This document shows, piece by piece, positions 9,473-50,781 of a stretch of DNA of 64,000 nt. Within the stretch, counting starts at the first letter, position 1. Each line of letters begins with the position of its first letter. This DNA is from Oscillatoria nigro-viridis PCC 7112 (GTDB taxonomy: Bacteria; Cyanobacteriota; Cyanobacteriia; Cyanobacteriales; Microcoleaceae), in contig NC_019729.1 in NCBI RefSeq assembly GCF_000317475.1, forward strand, positions 3,920,501-3,984,500, read 5' to 3'. Both the position numbers and the translations under genes were made by a program. Below the pieces are notes generated by a model. That model searched no databases and was not told the DNA's origin. It worked only from the letters and a program-made list of their open reading frames with translations.

Positions 9473-12400
9473 ATGAAAACCGTCAAAAATATTCAAAAAA
9501 CGTCAAAATTCCTATCAAAAGCAAGAATAAGCAAACTGACACTTGCTCTGCAAATAGTCTTAATAAATCTTTACTTTTTGCAAGCCAAAGCAGAAGGTCA
9601 AACAATTGTTCCAGCGGCGGACGCAACGGGTACTACCGTCACTCCTGCAGCCCAAAACGGGACTCCTGGGCAACCAACTCGCTTCGATATTCAAGGCGGA
9701 CAATTATCGAGCGATCGACAAAATCTTTTCCACAGCTTTAAAGAATTCGGCTTGTCGGAAAATCAGATTGCCAACTTTATATCAAACCCCAACATTCGCA
9801 ACATTTTAGCGGGCATAGGCGGAGGCAACCCCTCGATTATTAACGGCTTAATTCAAGTAACCGGCGGCAATTCTAACTTGTTTCTGATGAATCCATCCGG
9901 CATCATATTTGGCAACAGTGCCAGTTTAAACGTGCCGGCTTCTTTCACAGCAACCACCGCCACCGCTATTGGATTTGGTTCAAACTCCTTTAACGCTGTC
10001 GGTACTAGCACTTACACATCTCTGATAGGCACGCCCAATTCCTTTACTTTTGGAGCCGCTAAAGCAGGGGCAATTCTCAGCACGGCCGACTTAGCAGTCA
10101 AGTCAGGGCAGAACTTAACCTTGCTCGGCGGTACCGTTGTCAGCACAGGCAGCCTTTCGGCCCCAGGCGGTCAAATTACCGTCGCATCAGTCTCCGGGAC
10201 AAATTTAGTGCGCCTCAGCCAGCGAGGCAATTTGCTGAGTTTGGAAATCGAGCCGCCCTCAGCAACGAGCAGCACTGGAACATCCAGCACAGCTTCGACA
10301 TTCTCGATCGCATCCTTGCCCGAACTGCTCACAGGCCTCGGTCAAACAAACGCTACAGGCCTCAGCGTCAATGCCAGCGGTGAAGTGGTACTCACGGCCT
10401 CTAACCGAGCAGTAGCTGCGGGGGATGTGGCACTAAGAGATGCAAACGCTCGGGCGATCGAAATTCAAGCAGCCAACACCGTTGCAGTCAGCGGAAACCT
10501 GACAAGTTCCCAAGGCGGCCCAATCGCCATAGAAGCTAGTGGCGACATTCGCACTGTCGGTCTCGACTCCCACTCCGACACCACTGCAGGCGGCAACATC
10601 ACCGTCACCAGCCGTACAGGAAAAGTAGAAACAGGCAATATCAACGCAGGGTCGATCGACAAAAACAGCAACGCCGGAGACGTTAGTATTGCAGCACCCT
10701 CAAGCAGCATCCAAACAGGGTTCATAGACGCCAATTCCCAAGAAAAACAAGGCGGCGCAGTCACCCTCAACGCCCGCAACGACATCGAAGTAACCCATAT
10801 CAACACCGAAGGCCTAACAGCCGGAGGAGAGATTGACATTACAGCCGGCGGTAATTTCCGAGCTACAGGCACTTTCACAAACGATAACAACTGCTTGTCG
10901 CAACCTTGCAGCATTTCCGCATCCGCGACTGGTAGCGCCAATGGTGGAGATATCACCATTCGCCACGGTGGCGAAGCCTCGAACACTCCTTTCAGCGTCG
11001 GGCCCGACTATAACAAACTCAACGGTACTGCTGGCAGCATTGCCACTGGGGGTCCAAAGAAGGAAAACGTGATTACAAAGGGAGGTTATTTCAGCCCCAA
11101 CCCTCAAATAGTACAGCCGACGCAAATTAACATTACGGCTTCTTCTGTCTCGCCAGCACCAACACCAGCACCCGCACCGACACCAGCACCCGCGCCGACA
11201 CCGGCCCCAGCCCCAGCCCCAGCACCAGCCCCAGCCCCGACACCAGCACCCGCGCCGACACCAGCACCCGCGCCGACACCAGCCCCAGCCCCAGCGCCAG
11301 CCCCAGCACCCGCGCCGACACCAGCACCCGCGCCGACACCAGCCCCAGCGCCAGCCCCAGCGCCAGCCCCAGCACCGACACCAGCCCCAGCGCCAGTCCC
11401 AGCGCCGACACCAGCCCCAGCGCCAGCCCCAGCGCCGACACCGCCGACACCGCCGACACCGCCGACACCGCCGACACCGCCGACACCGCCGACACCAGCC
11501 CCAGCGCCGACACCAGCACCAGCGCCTGCACCAGCGCCTGCACCAGCGCCTGCACCAGCGCCTGCACCCGCACCCGCACCCGTACCCGCACCCGTACCCG
11601 CACCCGTACCCGTACCCGCACCCGTACCCGCACCCGCACCCGAACCAGCGCCTGCACCCGCACCCGTACCCGCACCCGCACCAGCGCCTGCACCCGCACC
11701 CGTACCCGCACCCGTACCCGCACCCGCACCAGCGCCGATATCAAATTTGCCGACACCAGTGCCAGCACCCGTACCCGCACCAGCGCCAGCACCAGCACCA
11801 TCACCCGCACCCGCACCAGCGCCGATATCAAATTTGCCGATCGCACCCACAATTACTCCAAATCCAGCGCCAGTCTCAAATTTGCCGATCGCACCCACAA
11901 TTACTCCAAATCCAGCGCCAGTCTCAAATTTGCCGACCGCACCCACAATTACTCCAAATCCAGCGCCAGTCTCAAATTTGCCGACCGCACCCACAATTAC
12001 TCCAAATCCAGCGCCAGTCTCAAATTTGCCGACCGCACCCACAATTACTCCAAATCCAGCGCCAGTCTCAAATTTGCCGATCGCACCCACAATTACTCCA
12101 AATCCAGCGCCAGTCTCAAATTTGCCGATCGCACCCACAATTACTCCAAATCCAGCGCCGATATCAAATTTGCCGATCGCACCCACAATTCCTCAAAATC
12201 CAGCGCCGATATCAAATTTGCCGATCGCACCCACAATTACTCCAAATCCAGTGGTTGCGCCTGCTGCTGCGCCCATAAATCTCGCACCGATACCGACACC
12301 GGAGCTCGCAGCCAACCGGCCGCCCAGCACAAATCCTTTATTTTCCCCCAGCTTACAACAGCAAAACCAGATATCTAATTCCTTACAACAGCGCATTTCA

Positions 12401-22106: not shown

Positions 22107-22183
22107 TCCCTCTTCCTTCTTCCCTCTTCCCTCTTCCTTCTTCCCTCTTCCCTCTTCCTTCTTCCCTCTTCCCTCTTCCTTCA
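22107..22183. repeat. CTTCTTCCCTCTTCC microsatellite
   Basis: Tandem 7-mers (cttcttc/cctcttc) organised in a 21-bp higher-order unit repeated about 3.5 times. The complementary strand gives ggaagaggg, the same sequence class that occurs inside the SNF2 gene at 46528-46580 and at about 50661-50690. Confidence 0.85.
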
Positions 22184-22203: not shown

Positions 22204-22629
22204 ATGGACGAATCGAAAATATTTCCCCAAGAAGACGATGTTGTGTCTGCCCCTACCAGCGCTTTGATGTATCAATGTACATTCAAAGTGAGCGAATTTA
22301 TGGCAATTATGCAGTCAAAATTGGTAGACGAAAAATTATTTTCAGACGGGCTGGATTGCGAGCTATTAAGTGCTGGCAAAGACTGGACGAAAGGAAAACT
22401 TAGAATGCGTCTGGAGTTCATTCCGCTCGAACCTGAAATCAAAGAACAAAAAGCCCTTCCTGCCGCTGCCTCCAGATCGGACACCGTGCAAAACTACGCC
22501 GTAGATAGCTCAAATAAAACCGATATAGATGAGCCATTAAAGCAATGTGACTCAACAGAAATAAGTAATCATTTTCCTATTTCTAGGTATCCAGACCGCG
22601 ACCCCCAAAGTATAGGAATGTGGAGCTAG
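22204..22629 (+). CDS. KGK-domain protein
   Basis: This 141-aa small soluble protein matches the cyanobacterial KGK family: 'DDVVSAPTSALMYQCTFKVSEFMAIMQSKL', 'GLDCELLSAGKDWTKGKLRMRLEFIPLEPE'. The WxKGKLR motif that names the family is at residues 60-67. The C-terminal 60 residues are polar and not conserved. Function is unknown. The start is at 22204, directly after the microsatellite, and tilS follows 124 bp later. Confidence 0.82.
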   Translation: MDESKIFPQEDDVVSAPTSALMYQCTFKVSEFMAIMQSKLVDEKLFSDGLDCELLSAGKDWTKGKLRMRLEFIPLEPEIKEQKALPAAASRSDTVQNYAVDSSNKTDIDEPLKQCDSTEISNHFPISRYPDRDPQSIGMWS

Positions 22630-22752
22630 GAAGGCAAAGACTGAGAGATTGGGAGAGGGGATGCTTCCCCTTCTTTGCTCAAAATCCCTCGGTGAAATCC
22701 CGTAGACTGCTCTTTGTCTAACTTCCTTATTTTTGAATGAAAAACTCCTATC

Positions 22753-24012
22753 ATGGCTGAATCTTCCCATTGGACGTACCTGCACGCTCAAGTGCACAGG
22801 ACGCTGCTGTACCGACAAATATTGCCATCAAATCAGCGATTGCTAGTAGCAGTATCTGGCGGACAAGATTCTCTGTGTTTAATTAAATTACTGCTAGATT
22901 TGCAGCCAAAATGGGGGTGGAAACTAGGGATTGTTCACTGCGATCATCGTTGGCGTTCTGACTCGCAAGCCTCGGCCAATCATGTAGAACAATTAGCTAA
23001 AAGCTGGGGAATATCCTACTATTTGGAAACAGCCTCGGACATCCCCAAAACAGAAGCAGCGGCCAGACAGTGGCGATATCAAGCTTTAACGGAAATTGCG
23101 ATCGCCCACAACTACCCCTACATTGTTACAGGCCACACAGCCAGCGATCGCGCCGAAACACTCCTCTACAACCTGATTCGCGGCAGTGGCGCCGACGGAC
23201 TTTCTGCCCTCACCTGGACGCGACCCCTGCTCGATTTTCGATTGCCGATTGCCGATTGTAGATTGGGGAATGCCGGCGAAAATCCCAACTCCCAAATATC
23301 GGTCGATTTTAGATTGGAAAATCACGATGAAAATTTCCAATCTAAAATCCCAAATCTCAAATCTAAAATCGGTAGATTGGGGAATTCCGGCGAAAATCCC
23401 AACTCCCAAATATCTGCCGATTTTAGATTGGAAAATCAGCCTGAAAATTCCCAATCGAAAATCCCAAATCTAAAATCTAAAATCTATTTAGTTCGTCCCT
23501 TGCTCGAAATAACTCGATCGCAAACAGGTCAATTTTGTCTAGAGCAAAAACTACCTATTTGGGAAGATTCCACAAATCAAGATTTGCAATATACGCGCAA
23601 CCGGATTCGAGCAGAATTATTGCCTTATTTGGAAACTCATTTCAACCCAAAAGCCCAACAAGCCCTATCTCAAACAGCCGAACTCCTCCGCGCCGACGTA
23701 GAATATCTCGAACTTGCAGCCAGCGAGTTGCTACAGCGAGCAATGTCTCCAATTGCAGACAGCCCGCAGGTAAATTTTCAACTTCCCGTCAAGTTAAATC
23801 GCCCGATTTTGCGGGAAGCACCCCTGGCCTTGCAGCGACGGGCAATGCGGCAACTACTGCAACAAATATTGCCCTCGGCCCCCAGCTTTGAAAGCGTAGA
23901 AAAACTAACCCGCTTAATAGTAGCGCCCAACCGATCGCAAACCGATCCATTTCCTGGAGGAGCGATCGGTCGAGTCGAACACCCTTCGATAATTTTACAT
24001 ATTCAATTTTAA
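22753..24012 (+). CDS. tilS: tRNA(Ile)-lysidine synthase with an in-frame repeat insertion
   Basis: TilS converts cytidine-34 of tRNA(Ile)CAU to lysidine, which is essential for reading AUA codons. The PP-loop ATPase motif is 'LLVAVSGGQDSLCLIKLL' (residues 31-48). Others are 'IVHCDHRWR', 'TGHTASDRAETLLYNLIRGSG' and 'LPIWEDSTNQDLQYTRNRIR'. The protein is 419 aa because about 80 residues coded by dispersed repeat DNA lie between 'GLSALTWTRPLL' and 'YLVRPLLEITRSQ'. Without them it would have the usual length of about 335 aa. The insert is in frame and without stops, so the enzyme is probably functional with an extra surface loop. Its stop overlaps the convergent hmpF stop by 4 nt. Confidence 0.94.
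   Translation: MAESSHWTYLHAQVHRTLLYRQILPSNQRLLVAVSGGQDSLCLIKLLLDLQPKWGWKLGIVHCDHRWRSDSQASANHVEQLAKSWGISYYLETASDIPKTEAAARQWRYQALTEIAIAHNYPYIVTGHTASDRAETLLYNLIRGSGADGLSALTWTRPLLDFRLPIADCRLGNAGENPNSQISVDFRLENHDENFQSKIPNLKSKIGRLGNSGENPNSQISADFRLENQPENSQSKIPNLKSKIYLVRPLLEITRSQTGQFCLEQKLPIWEDSTNQDLQYTRNRIRAELLPYLETHFNPKAQQALSQTAELLRADVEYLELAASELLQRAMSPIADSPQVNFQLPVKLNRPILREAPLALQRRAMRQLLQQILPSAPSFESVEKLTRLIVAPNRSQTDPFPGGAIGRVEHPSIILHIQF
23258..23485. repeat. Two 114-bp repeat units inserted in tilS
   Basis: Two copies (23258-23371 and 23372-23485) of a 114-bp unit, which equals 38 codons. Each begins gtagattgggga and ends in aaaatctaaaatc heptamers like the intergenic arrays. It codes for GRLGNSGENPNSQIS-type sequence ending SKIPNLKSKI. 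A partial further unit (cgattttcgattgccgattg) precedes it from about 23232. Confidence 0.88.
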
Positions 24013-25754
24013 GCTGCGATCAAACCCGAAAGGACTTGCCACAACTCGGAAACTACCCGATTTTGCTCGTCTCCCGTCTCCTGCACCCGATCGAGTTCCC
24101 CCGCCACCGCTTCGAGCTTTTGGCGTAGCGCATTCAAATTGTCCTGCACCGGCTGCAACATTTCTTGATAAACATTCAGCCTGCCCCAGAGTTGCGCCAC
24201 TGCACCTTTCTGGTTGAACAAATTCTGCTCTAACTGCTTGAGTTCGTAGCGTTTCGCCTCACTTTCCCCATTTTGGCGGTTGACATTTGCCTCAATTTGG
24301 GATATTGCTTCCCGCACCTGCTGAATTTCGTTTTCCAGTCTTTGCAATTCTTGGCTTTGCTGCTGCCGCTGAGTATCGATCTGTGCGACAATCGGCCCCA
24401 AATCAATATCTCCTCGCTCTTGTTTTAGAGCATTAGCAGTACCCAGCCGCCGCCACAGCACCGCCTGATGCTGCTTCAAAACATCTTCCCGTTCCTGCAA
24501 CCGGAGGCGCTGTCCCACGAGAGTTTCGTTTAACATCTGATAACTTTCGAGTTCATCTGCCATTTCATTTTCCAAAGCCAGGCGATCGTACTCGCTAGCA
24601 GCTTGAATTTTCCCTTGCAGATCCTCGATTGTCTCCCGCTGCAGAGTCAACTCCTCCTCTTGATCGTTAACAAACCGGAACACCTTTTCCAAATCCTGTT
24701 CCAGGTGTTGCACCAGCCCCTGTAACTCATCAACAGGCATCTTCTCCAAAGCTGACACATCTACTTTCTGCTCCGTACCCGCAGCACCCGAAGCAGATGC
24801 GAGCCTGGAAACTTGCTGGTAAAGGTTCTCAACAGCCTGCACCTGCAAAGACACCGACTGAGCCTGGCCCTGCTTAGCGCTGAGGGTACTTTGCTGCCCT
24901 TTAAGCTCCGCCCGAGCCCCGGCCAAAGCATCTTGAGATTGGTACCACTCTTGCCAGCGGTTCTGGAGGGTCTGATTTTGTCGATCGACCTCTTCTTGTT
25001 GCTGTTGAGCTATGCTCTGTTTTTGCTCCAACTGCTGCCAGTGCTGATCCAGAATTGCCTGTTGAGCGCCCACCGCACCAAGAGACTGATTCAGTTGTTC
25101 CCGCACCCCTTGGGCCGAAGCAATTGCCCCTCCCAGCTTCTGCATCAACTCCTGAATCCTCTGGCTCTGCTGCTCATCAATTACTGCCCCCTGCGGAACC
25201 TCAGACTGCTGCTGGGCCACCCGTTGCTGCTCGCCCCGCAACTGTTCCCAAGCCGTCTCAATTTCCACGCGACTGCGATCGACTTCTTCTCGCAGTCGGT
25301 TAGCTTCATCTCGAGTATTTTCAATTTCCGAGCGCTGAGCCTCCAGCCGCTCCAACTCCTCCTCCATTTGAGCCAACTGCTCTTCGCGGGCTTGCATTTC
25401 CATTTCCCGGCGATTGAGTTCCTGACTCGAAAACGTCAGAGAAGCCTTCCACTGTTCAATTTCCTCTTCCTTATCCTTAAACTTGTCCTGCAATCGCGAG
25501 AAATTTTGCAGAATGCTCACCAACTGGCGGGCCGCCTCCTGAATCCGCTGCACTTGCTTGCTAGCGCTCAACTCAACCAGCACCAGCGTGCCGTCGTTAA
25601 ACTTATTAGCTTCCTCAACTGGGATCGCGTCATCGCCTGGTACGGCGCTCCAGTTATGTTCGCCCCGCTGACAAGCTAGCAGTTTCAGTTCAGCCTTACC
25701 GCCACCGAGACCAAAGCCGCTTCTCTGTTTTTGTACTTCCGCTAGATACAGCAC
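24009..25754 (-). CDS. hmpF: Pilus motility taxis protein HmpF
   Basis: HmpF is a coiled-coil protein needed for type IV pilus activity and pole localisation in hormogonia of filamentous cyanobacteria. The N-terminus 'MLYLAEVQKQRSGFGLGGGKAELKLLACQRGEHNWSAVPG' is highly characteristic. Residues 65-570 are almost wholly coiled coil, rich in Gln, Glu and Arg, with heptads. The length of 581 aa is as expected. It is divergent from hmpA, as in Nostoc punctiforme, but the intergenic space is 1.6 kb and filled with transposon debris. It is therefore uncertain whether the shared promoter region still works. Confidence 0.92.
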   Translation of the reverse strand: MLYLAEVQKQRSGFGLGGGKAELKLLACQRGEHNWSAVPGDDAIPVEEANKFNDGTLVLVELSASKQVQRIQEAARQLVSILQNFSRLQDKFKDKEEEIEQWKASLTFSSQELNRREMEMQAREEQLAQMEEELERLEAQRSEIENTRDEANRLREEVDRSRVEIETAWEQLRGEQQRVAQQQSEVPQGAVIDEQQSQRIQELMQKLGGAIASAQGVREQLNQSLGAVGAQQAILDQHWQQLEQKQSIAQQQQEEVDRQNQTLQNRWQEWYQSQDALAGARAELKGQQSTLSAKQGQAQSVSLQVQAVENLYQQVSRLASASGAAGTEQKVDVSALEKMPVDELQGLVQHLEQDLEKVFRFVNDQEEELTLQRETIEDLQGKIQAASEYDRLALENEMADELESYQMLNETLVGQRLRLQEREDVLKQHQAVLWRRLGTANALKQERGDIDLGPIVAQIDTQRQQQSQELQRLENEIQQVREAISQIEANVNRQNGESEAKRYELKQLEQNLFNQKGAVAQLWGRLNVYQEMLQPVQDNLNALRQKLEAVAGELDRVQETGDEQNRVVSELWQVLSGLIAA

Positions 25755-42802: not shown

Positions 42803-43207
42803 AGGGCTCGTAACGAGGTCTTGATGTCATCTTTATCTGCGTTTTTCTACAGACGCTGATGAAAATCAAACCTGCTATCTTCACCTGCAATGTCTGCGGT
42901 TTACAAGCCTATATCGTATCATTTATAGTAACTACCTAAGCATACTTTATATTTTTTTGATTCCCCGCTCTGCTGGGACTTCATTGATGTATTTGCGGCT
43001 TTAACCGCCGAGGGTAAAGTGCGCGACTTTATTAACTTCTACAGCCGATCGCACTTTTGTCGATCTGTCGCTGTCGCGCACCTACTCCCAAATCAATCTG
43101 AAACAATCAGATTTAATCTCAATTAGCAATTAGCAATTACTAATCACCAGTTACCAATTAGCAATTAGCAATTACTCTACAAGTAATTACCAATTACCAA
43201 CCGTAAA
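42803..43207. other. Intergenic region with AATTAGC repeats
   Basis: It includes a tandem tract of caattag/caattac heptamers at about 43121-43200, directly next to the pnp stop. No gene is seen. 42860-42900 contains another 'atctgcg..' dispersed repeat. Confidence 0.6.
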
Positions 43208-45808: not shown

Positions 45809-48800
45809 ATGGCTATTTTACACGGCAGTTGGCTCCTAGATAATGAAAAAAGTTGCTTGTTTATTTGGGGAGAAACTTGGCGAAAAATTGAGGCGATTCA
45901 GACCCTAGAATTAGGGAATAATTTACCGCATCCCTTAGCAATGACCGAATCGGAATTTAAGATTTTCCTAAATTCCTTGCAGCAGTCGGGCAAACTCAAC
46001 TGGCAATTACCGGAAACCGCAGAAAATCCACCGGAAAAGAGCAAAAAAACTAGGCGGTCGCCCAAAACTCCCAAGGAAGAAATTCCCGCCCCCAACTCCT
46101 CAATTAAAAAGGAAGTTCGGGCGATCGCACTTCCCACCCACATCTGGGAATCGAACTCAAATCTGATGCCGCAGCACTCAGCAGCAGCAATTGAGGAACC
46201 CGCTAAAACCGAGGAAATTTACCTTTATCCCTGGCAAGTCGAGGGTTTTTGTCTCAACCCTCAAGCAGCTTTTGTTTTCTTGCAATCACTACCGCTTAAC
46301 AGCACGGAGCCCGACTCTTTTGTCGGCTCAGATTTGCGTTTTTGGTCTCATATTGCTAGGTGGAGTTTGGATTTGTTGGCAAGATGCAAATTTTTGCCTG
46401 GATTAGAGAAACAGTCGGACGGTTCTGCTATTGCCAAATGGCAACCGCTGTTAGATAGTTCTACAGATACACTCCGCCTCGCCACTTTTGTCAAGCAAAT
46501 GCCGACGGCTTGCCGAACATATCAATCGAAGGAAGAAGGAAGAAGGAAGAAGGAAGAAGGAAGAGGGGAAAAGGAAGAAGAATCCAGTCAATTGCCTTTA
46601 GCGGTGGATTTGCCGATGGGGGCGGAGGAATTGGTGTTAGGCTTTTTGAGTAGTATTGTAGATAGTCAAGTGCGATCTGCTGGTAGCTCTACTTTAGAAC
46701 TCAAAGCAGTTTCTCCGGTGCGCGACTGGCTGCAAGCTTTGCACCAGGAATCTGGGATAGTTCAAGTAGAAACAGCAGCCTTGGAAAATTTGGCAACCAA
46801 GCTGAGTGCTTGGACTGCACCGCTGCAAAACCAATTATCTCAACAAAGTCAATTTCGCACTTGCTTTCAACTCATACCACCAGTGCCCGGTAAAGCCAAC
46901 TGGAGTTTAAATTATTGTTTGCAAGCAGCAGATGAAGCGGAATTTTTGGTAGACGCGACAACTGTTTGGAACAACTCAGTCGAGCGTTTGGCTTATGCGG
47001 GGCGGACAATAGAATTGCCTCAAGAAACTTTGCTCAGTGGCTTGGGTTTAGCCTCGAAACTTTATCCGTTAATTGAACCGAGTTTGCAAGCACAGCGGCC
47101 TCAATCTTGTCAATTAAATCCGCTGCAAGCTTACGAGTTTATTAAGTCTGTAGCTTGGCGGTTTGCTGATAGCGGGTTGGGCGTGGTTTTGCCGCCGAGT
47201 TTGACAAAGACAGGTGGTTGGGCGAGTCGTTTGGGTTTGAGCATTCAAGCGGAAACTCCGAAAGTGACTCCCGGCAAGGGGGGGTTGGGATTGCAAAGTC
47301 TGCTAAATTTTAAGTGGGAATTGACGATCGGCGGACAGCGCATTTCTAAGGCAGAATTTGACAGGTCGATCGCGTTGAATTCGCCTTTGGTGGAAATTAA
47401 CGGCGAGTGGGTGGAGTTGCGCGCGCCGGATGTGAAAGCGGCTCAAACTTTTTTTGCCAGCCGCAAAGAGCAAATGACTCTTTCTTTGGAGGATGCTTTG
47501 CGTTTGGCGTCGGGCGATTCTCAGACGATCGAAAAATTGCCTGTGGTGAATTTTGAGGCTACGGGTCAACTTCAGGAATTGTTGAATACTTTGAGCGATA
47601 ATCAAGCCGTAAGTGCGATCGCAACTCCCGCTAGTTTCCGAGGACAATTGCGGCCTTATCAAGCCCTAGGAGCAGGCTGGTTAGCATTCTTAGAACGCTG
47701 GGGTTTGGGTGCTTGTCTCGCGGACGATATGGGGCTCGGCAAATGCTTGTTACCACAAAGCTTGCTTTTTGTCAATGGCTTTTTACAAAAAGCTGAAAAA
47801 ATATGGGAAGCTTATGCCGGAAAAACAGAATTCGACGGTGAGGGCTTTTGGTCTGAACCTAACGAGCAATTACTGGTAAATTCCATAAATCAGGAAACAG
47901 GCAAAATTGTACAGGCGCCTATTCGACGGCTTTACCGCCAGCCAGTGCAAGAAAAGTTGCGAACCATCAAACTACAAGACGGTAGCAGCATCACAATTAC
48001 CGGCCGCCACAAATTGTTAGGACGCGATGGCTGGACAAATGACCTCAAGGTTGGAGACTATGTTTGCGTTCCTGCTAAATTGTATTGGGAAGGAAAGCCG
48101 GAAGATCCCGATTTGGTCAAGTTTTTGGCTTGGCAGATTGCTGAGGGACATGAGCAGCGCGATCGGGCAACGCTCACAATAACGCAGAAAGATGTGGCAG
48201 TTATTGAAGAATTGCGTTTCACACTTCACCAATTAAGCAAAAAGTATGGGATAGAAATAAATAATCCTGCAGTTCGTACTCCCGGTAAGCAAAGAGCAGC
48301 ATATTTAGCTGTGTGTAGTCGATCGTACCAAAGCTTTCTTCAGGCTAAAGGCTACGAGTGGGGAAAGCTGTCAGCCGAGAAAAGCTTCCCGCAATTCATC
48401 ATGCAAGCCAATCTTGACAGCATACGGATTTTTCTCAGAAACTACTTTGATGCTGAAGGTTCTGTCCTTCCTAAAATGCGGACTGTCGAAATTAGCACCG
48501 CTTCGCCTTTAATAATTCAACAACTTTCTACACTGCTGCGGCGCTTTGGAATTTGGCTGCGAATCGCCACTAAGCAGAAACGCGCCACCAATGGCAGCGG
48601 GATTTTTCGCACCTATTATATCGGTGCTTTCGGCGGTAACTCAGCGCGCATATTTTTGCAGGAAATAGGCTTCGGTTATCCAGAAAAACAGCAAAATTTA
48701 GAGAAAATTTGCGAAGTTACTGCCAATACAAATGTCGAAGGAATTCCGGTTTCGGATATTGTTGCCGATGCAGTGGAGATGACCAAACTGCCGCTACGGC

Positions 48801-50618: not shown

Positions 50619-50781
50619 CGGGCCAATGCCCGATGCCCAATTCCCAATTCCCGATTGAAGCCAGAAGGAAGAAGGAAGAGGGGAAGAGAAGGAGATAGGG
50701 AAAATTCCCTGCGCGGGCCAATGCCCGATTCCCAATTCCCAATGCCCAAATCTAAAATCTAAAATCTAAAATCTAAAATCG
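50619..50781. repeat. Mixed heptamer repeats between the SNF2 and SWIM genes
   Basis: gcccgat/ttcccaa units (two near-identical 'tgcgcgggccaatgcccgat' copies at about 50616 and 50711), a ggaagaa run, and an aatctaa array at 50748-50780 ending right at the SWIM gene start. Confidence 0.8.

Follow-up and report, generated by a model that had tools for sequence, protein, structure and literature searches.

The window, a stretch of 64,000 nucleotides of the Oscillatoria nigro-viridis PCC 7112 genome (G000; contig NC_019729.1, positions 3,920,501 to 3,984,500), carries an intact tilS gene encoding tRNA(Ile)-lysidine synthase, an essential enzyme. In profile searches, the gene product matches TIGR02432 (E 8.7e-57; 192.1 bits, with a cut-off of 93.6) and PF01171. 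Residues S35, G36, G37, Q38, D39 and S40 are invariant in an alignment of 81 TilS sequences, and the SGGxDS stretch at residues 35-40 is the PP-loop motif; both score and PP-loop place the protein among the TilS enzymes. A whole-genome search at E 0.001 returned this match and no second tilS, so that the alternative intact copy named by the original prediction as evidence against itself was not found. The features of the gene are as follows.

22753..24012, + strand: tilS, tRNA(Ile)-lysidine synthase, 419 aa, intact (ORF, profile matches, single match in the genome)
23230..23475, + strand: in-frame repeat-coded insert of 82 residues (160-241), between 'ALTWTRPL' and SKIYLVRPLLEI
23233..23264, + strand: left array, five GATT-NNN heptamers in reverse orientation, peptide DFRLPIADCRL (period-7 run scan)
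about 23258..23371, + strand: copy 1 of the 114-bp unit, more diverged from relatives (tandem-repeat detection, copy comparison)
23305..23349, + strand: hairpin-forming palindrome GATTTTAGATTGG...CCAATCTAAAATC inside copy 1 (sequence reading and genome word count)
23339..23370, + strand: right array of copy 1, five AATC-NNN heptamers, peptide QSKIPNLKSKI (period-7 run scan)
about 23372..23485, + strand: copy 2 of the 114-bp unit, nearer to the single copy of relatives (tandem-repeat detection, copy comparison)
23453..23484, + strand: right array of copy 2, five AATC-NNN heptamers (period-7 run scan)

Two 114-bp units with ATTTTAG-type heptamer ends had been predicted inside tilS, together with about 80 residues of repeat-coded peptide between the PP-loop core and SKIYLVRPLLEI. 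A tandem pair (units of 113-114 bp, detected at 23258-23370 and 23372-23484; 2.0 copies, 92% identical) is indeed present; its two copies differ at 11 of 114 positions, and both end in a CTAAAAT/ATTTTAG-type heptamer run. The repeat-coded peptide counts 82 residues, and its coordinates had been given correctly. The accompanying statement that no frame carries a stop here was mistaken, as stops occur in five of the six frames over 23230-23487, the tilS frame being the one fully open. One other plus-strand frame and one minus-strand frame have a single stop each, and the remaining three have several.

The structure was modelled with AlphaFold2 from an alignment of the window TilS with 80 relatives. 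The pLDDT is 90 or higher for 246 of the 419 residues and falls below 50 for residues 162-240, located between strands 156-158 and 245-247. The model has the TilS fold, as judged by comparison with Aquifex TilS (2e21; Z 29.1, rmsd 2.2, 303 aligned residues) and with tRNA-bound TilS (3a2k; Z 25.4, rmsd 2.6, 317 aligned residues). In sequence alignments, the flanking stretches are separated by 4, 7 and 6 residues in three solved TilS chains, none of which has an insert. In the model, the window insert looks like a disordered surface loop that bridges a β-hairpin on a confidently predicted, sound TilS core. The full-length, insert-bearing TilS is presumably made and working.

Dispersal of the heptamer family and repeats read within genes

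The word GATTTTAGATTGG occurs 79 times in the genome, compared with a single occurrence of the reversed control. Period-7 AATC/GATT runs (three or more repeats) number 108 in 864 kb of the genome, a sample composed of 40 stretches of 20 kb and of the window, so that tilS is included by design. A CTAA/TTAG control (56 matches) was a poor one, as the arrays themselves contain those letters, and all twelve orderings, including AATC, were then run. Four of the eleven other orderings (ACAT, ATAC, CATA and TACA) gave no runs, and seven gave 5-56, the highest being CTAA. When arrays are merged, 8 of 96 lie inside ORFs and 88 do not, although a greedy ORF set covers 79% of the sample; the arrays are therefore mostly excluded by genes. 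Three of the eight are those of tilS, sampled by design, and two are runs in locus L171. ORFs with heptamer runs in L164 and L171 were not counted as genes, as their translations are not gene-like. The heptamer family is dispersed beyond chance and is mainly intergenic.

The 114-bp repeat as such had been regarded as a dispersed element, which is correct for its heptamer part; the whole unit is confined to tilS. The other 58 matches in the genome (E up to 10; a lower bound, 40 of 635 candidates being scored) are partial, and most of them correspond to the last ~34-43 nt of the unit, i.e., to the heptamer part.

CTAAAAT arrays often adjoin a start codon (...CTAAAATCGAATGAC...), as observed at 50748-50780 of the window and in L040, L046, L047, L052, L053 and L060; the gene in L047 presumably is mnmG, which it resembles. 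An in-frame ORF ATG lies within 12 nt on the 3' side of 14 of the 108 runs, and on the 5' side of one. CTAAAAT arrays at start codons may act as an A-rich leader.

Arrays are read in frame also in ictB, in trpD and in a non-ribosomal peptide synthetase (NRPS) gene. In the latter, DFRLPILDFRLGNAGE is read in frame within an adenylation-domain loop (L064; G000 C1:4221847-4221900), which carries the heptamer-coded peptide DFRLPILDFRL. A 51-nt stretch there matches the tilS insert of G018 at 48 of 51 nt (94%) in the same frame, and AGATTGGGGAATNCNGGNGAAAA, with up to two mismatches, occurs only in tilS (2) and in the NRPS gene (1). The G019 orthologue (L299) carries a similar stretch, which is missing from five other orthologues that were read. 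Copying from tilS to the NRPS gene was considered and rejected, as at the array site the orthologues of the NRPS gene carry a native GATTGGAAAATGC-like stretch; the heptamer stretch alone is surely shared. The maf gene was likewise set aside as a further capture, as its array-like stretch spans 13 residues in 28/28 loci and may be ordinary sequence.

Two other repeat families are found in frame in the tilS genes of other species. In G013 and G019 (L018 and L022), a 14-residue insert, LAKPAPTG...TKR, occurs at the site corresponding to GCGATCGC of the window (residue ~121), and the G019 gene has a second such palindrome insert near the C-terminus. The underlying 42-bp palindrome (GCGAAGCCCGCCCCTACGGGGGCT...) is present, with up to two mismatches, in 18, 14 and 18 copies in G013, G019 and G000, respectively. 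In the tilS gene of G033, which belongs to another family of the order, inverted GGGGACT and CCCAATC heptamer arrays are in frame near residue 331 (L025:874-1980); G033 has 62 occurrences of the doubled GGGGACT-type word, overlaps included, and G000 has none. Each of these captures involves a repeat family of its own genome and, in terms of the modelled structure, probably lies between secondary-structure elements or at the chain end. With the arrays of ictB, trpD and the NRPS gene and the two additional families, the generalisation to other genes is stronger than could be known when the original prediction was made.

Age and length of the insert among relatives

Named genomes were scanned for tilS; among 369 relatives found, the best 80 loci were kept, and insert lengths were counted up to LVRP, a count on which the window insert has 86 residues. 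Within these 80, all 26 loci of the Microcoleus/Tychonema clade carry an insert of 17-48 residues. Outside the clade, the turn has exactly 5 residues in 46 of the 54 cyanobacterial loci, and 9-35 in the remaining eight. The longest of the latter, in Kamptonema sp. UHCC 0994 (L123), is an unrelated low-complexity insert of 35 residues at the same turn, the DNA of which is purine-rich and then pyrimidine-rich. Direct reading of six out of 15 genomes from other families gave 2-3 residues for the insert site, on a slightly different boundary.

All 29 genomes examined for the genus, including that of the window, have tilS at one place and the insert at the same site, with 17-86 residues; the insert is therefore ancestral to the genus. 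Relatives within the genus have a homologous repeat-coded peptide at this site, and the unrelated conserved domain that would have spoken against a repeat origin is not seen. The 114-bp doubling was seen in the window genome only; its neighbours have one unit, the nearest relatives by tilS core being Microcoleus sp. FACHB-DQ6 and M. vaginatus HSN003. Copy 2 is nearer than copy 1 to the single unit in 5/5 relatives (for instance, 3 versus 8 differences in L075). The recent event, as read from the sequences, is not a capture; a unit that was there before has been duplicated locally, in tandem. The suggestion that intergenic repeats move into, and are tolerated by, an essential enzyme thus stands for in-frame carriage and toleration; movement was not observed, and the capture is ancestral.

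Changes in length were placed on a tree of 29 species, built from tilS, trpD and ictB without the insert columns, in which 18 of 26 inner branches are strongly supported. At least 15 changes of tilS insert length are required. Differences of 7 residues (21 bp, three heptamers) separate G020 from its group, G008 from G016, G005 from G021, and G006 from G022 and G041. Since 7 and 3 have no common factor, one heptamer shifts the frame, and three are therefore gained or lost together, making 21 bp the common step. Among hand-picked sister contrasts, 4 of 7 are of exactly 7 residues (binomial P 0.010), and 7 of 10 when three ictB changes are added (P 1e-4), both values being descriptive only; G001, G004, G013 and G019 were omitted, their ancestral length being unclear. 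The ictB loop with the array has 23 or 30 residues in 28/28 loci, with at least three changes, each of 7 residues. At the trpD array site, 13-14 or 19-20 residues are found in 28 loci, the 29th locus being a fragment.

Other changes follow a different spacing. The G010 insert is 17 residues shorter than those of its neighbours, and the G004 insert (65 residues) features a doubled 17-residue segment. Two GATTTTAGATTGG copies are spaced by 51 bp, equal to seventeen codons, which makes recombination between them the likely cause of 17-residue steps. Differences of 6, 17, 20, 24 and 38 residues, as well as the 114-bp step, are not multiples of the heptamer.

Origin of the insert and comparison with known repeats

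One strand of the heptamer contains TAA and the opposite strand TAG. Over the 27 inserts counted, TAA occurs in register in 0/36 cases, and out of register in 12/34 and 15/40; the corresponding figures for TAG are 0/38, 11/16 and 24/38. The in-register zeros are demanded by the open frame; what is informative is the survival of these stop triplets out of register. Among eight orthologues whose inserts have 48 residues, variable columns are evenly distributed over the three codon positions in the insert (15/14/15 of 48), and unevenly in the core (38/24/97 of 216). The pN/pS range (95%) is 0.38-1.39 for the insert, which includes 1, and 0.14-0.25 for the core. In the absence of a codon-position bias, and with this range, the insert peptide is therefore hardly constrained. 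The pS of the insert (0.13; 95% 0.07-0.20) is about half that of the core (0.26; 0.22-0.31), which is unlike simple neutrality; homogenisation or gene conversion with dispersed copies, or a constraint at the DNA level, are possible causes.

We favour, with a probability of about 0.8, a single ancient entry followed by lengthening and shortening within the array, the product being near-neutral filler whose frame is maintained by selection on TilS. In this account, the β-turn that joins the PP-loop core to the RPLL segment would have received an ATTTTAG-type heptamer repeat with inverted arms on one occasion, prior to the diversification of the genus. The surface position of the turn and the disorder of the peptide read through it would account for the toleration of the repeat. 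The array would then have grown and shrunk by slippage during replication or by recombination among its own repeats, only frame-keeping, stop-free products surviving. Pure heptamer changes would survive in quanta of three (21 bp, 7 residues), and recombination between GATTTTAGATTGG copies 51 bp apart would give the 17-residue steps. In the window genome, the 114-bp duplication would have enlarged a loop of about 48 residues to one of 86, on the count up to LVRP. The insert is most likely a tolerated sequence, and probably a near-neutral one.

Since the insert is found in 29/29 genomes of the genus, is never lost and never has fewer than 17 residues, it could have a role. The repeat would in that case have been raw material for a selected disordered segment that tunes TilS by tRNA contact, solubility or partner binding; the slow synonymous change of the insert relative to the core and the recurrence of a similar peptide (DFRL..N..N..SKI.NLKSKI) in many species fit this idea. 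Such co-option is nevertheless unlikely, given a length that spreads from 17 to 86 residues through at least 15 changes, the even distribution of variable columns, and a nonsynonymous divergence above that of the core (pN 0.089 versus 0.050 in the eight orthologues). In addition, the same peptides appear in unrelated genes in which the array is read.

An even less probable account is that of a mobile protein-coding palindrome, the unit itself transposing in frame into genes. The closest known system is that of Rickettsia and Wolbachia, in which dispersed palindromic elements lie in frame in conserved genes and code for a tolerated peptide (PMC10969869, PMC3767692). Like the Rickettsia elements, the repeats described here are in frame within conserved genes (tilS, ictB, trpD and NRPS), and the window insert is palindromic, with a strong hairpin as RNA (z -6.85); the near-identity of the NRPS stretch and the G018 insert in the same frame points the same way. 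However, Rickettsia elements are units of 100-150 bp dispersed whole, whereas only heptamer arrays are dispersed here. The 114-bp unit is whole in tilS alone, and whole-unit transposition was rejected as the main reading on this ground; moreover, AGATTGGGGAATNCNGGNGAAAA is limited to tilS and the NRPS gene, where the non-heptamer part of the match may not be copied, given the native GATTGGAAAATGC-like stretch.

The fold also varies among species. Ten relatives' inserts have z values from -6.70 to -0.01, six of them at -2.79 to -6.70 and four weaker than -1.1. Among inserts of 31 residues or fewer, 4/5 have no fold (z -0.01 to -1.09) and the fifth has a z of -5.20, slightly shifted ends being used for those of L083, L088 and L089. 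Covariation in eight orthologues is confined to 1 of 45 pairs, with an unfavourable covariation term (+1.22), and Rfam gave no match in 22500-24300. A conserved RNA structure was rejected on the basis of the unsupported covariation and the empty Rfam search. Since whole-unit dispersal is lacking, the tilS insert is not filed with the Rickettsia palindromic elements, which it resembles in the way it works, and from which it differs in a length that often changes in 21-bp quanta.

That the pair is an artefact of assembly or annotation, or tilS a pseudogene in decay, is hardly credible: tandem near-copies are a usual site of assembly errors, but these copies differ at 11/114 positions, tilS is intact, a single match and found at one place in each of the 29 genus genomes, and its core pN/pS is about 0.19 among eight relatives.

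The 29 species constitute a clean natural series for a single loop of a single gene (17-86 residues), along which the successive gains, losses and duplications of repeats in a housekeeping enzyme can be followed. In Microcoleus, a soil cyanobacterium, a selfish-looking scattered repeat grows and shrinks inside tilS from one species to another, leaving the gene unbroken. More tentatively, and with odds slightly short of even, dispersed repeats, heptamers above all, may be a continuing source of protein segments in filamentous cyanobacteria, with enzymes such as TilS catching the lineage's own repeat family in frame at surface loops, and heptamers diversifying by the 21-bp/7-residue quantum. If true, this would be a second protein-coding repeat system, built independently of the one in Rickettsia and Wolbachia and having its own length arithmetic. 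The 7-residue quantum offers a rule, open to testing, for the conversion of non-coding repeats into protein, and repeat-coded loops in cyanobacterial proteins should not be taken for functional domains.

Two other classes of repeats are relevant for comparison. Borg ORFs contain tandem repeats with units divisible by three, which mostly form disordered segments; the repeats are described as nearly all perfect, of local origin, carried by extrachromosomal elements and often located in extracellular or membrane proteins (PMC9879509). The 114-bp unit, divisible by three and within the tilS ORF, is similar in this respect. In contrast, the Borg threshold, as we read it, is of at least three perfect units, whereas the tilS pair has 2.0 copies with 92% matches, lies in a tRNA-modifying enzyme and is built from a genome-wide family.

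As regards raw material, the parallel is with cyanobacterial heptanucleotide repeats of the STRR type, which are tandem 7-nt units scattered mostly between genes, as are the arrays described here. The heptanucleotide repeats of Calothrix PCC 7601 were reportedly the first STRR, and an STRR is known inside the RNase P RNA gene. Three heptanucleotides are reported in Calothrix, and 68% of the Nostoc repeats (GGGGA(C/T)T) are intergenic (PMC4692102). The present heptamer differs from the Nostoc one, is traced inside a housekeeping enzyme over 29 species and changes in reading-frame quanta; its class is assigned by organisation. Among the matches listed in the open-licence literature (titles and abstract openings), no prior description of a heptamer repeat translated in TilS was found. 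The window features other heptamer families, GTTGACT, TCCCTCT, CAATTAG and GAAGGAA (2758-2798, 22107-22182, 43120-43200 and 46528-46580), as well as, at 11151-12251, a long array whose repeats measure 12, 18 and 48 bp (CACCAGCACCCG..., of proline/alanine type).
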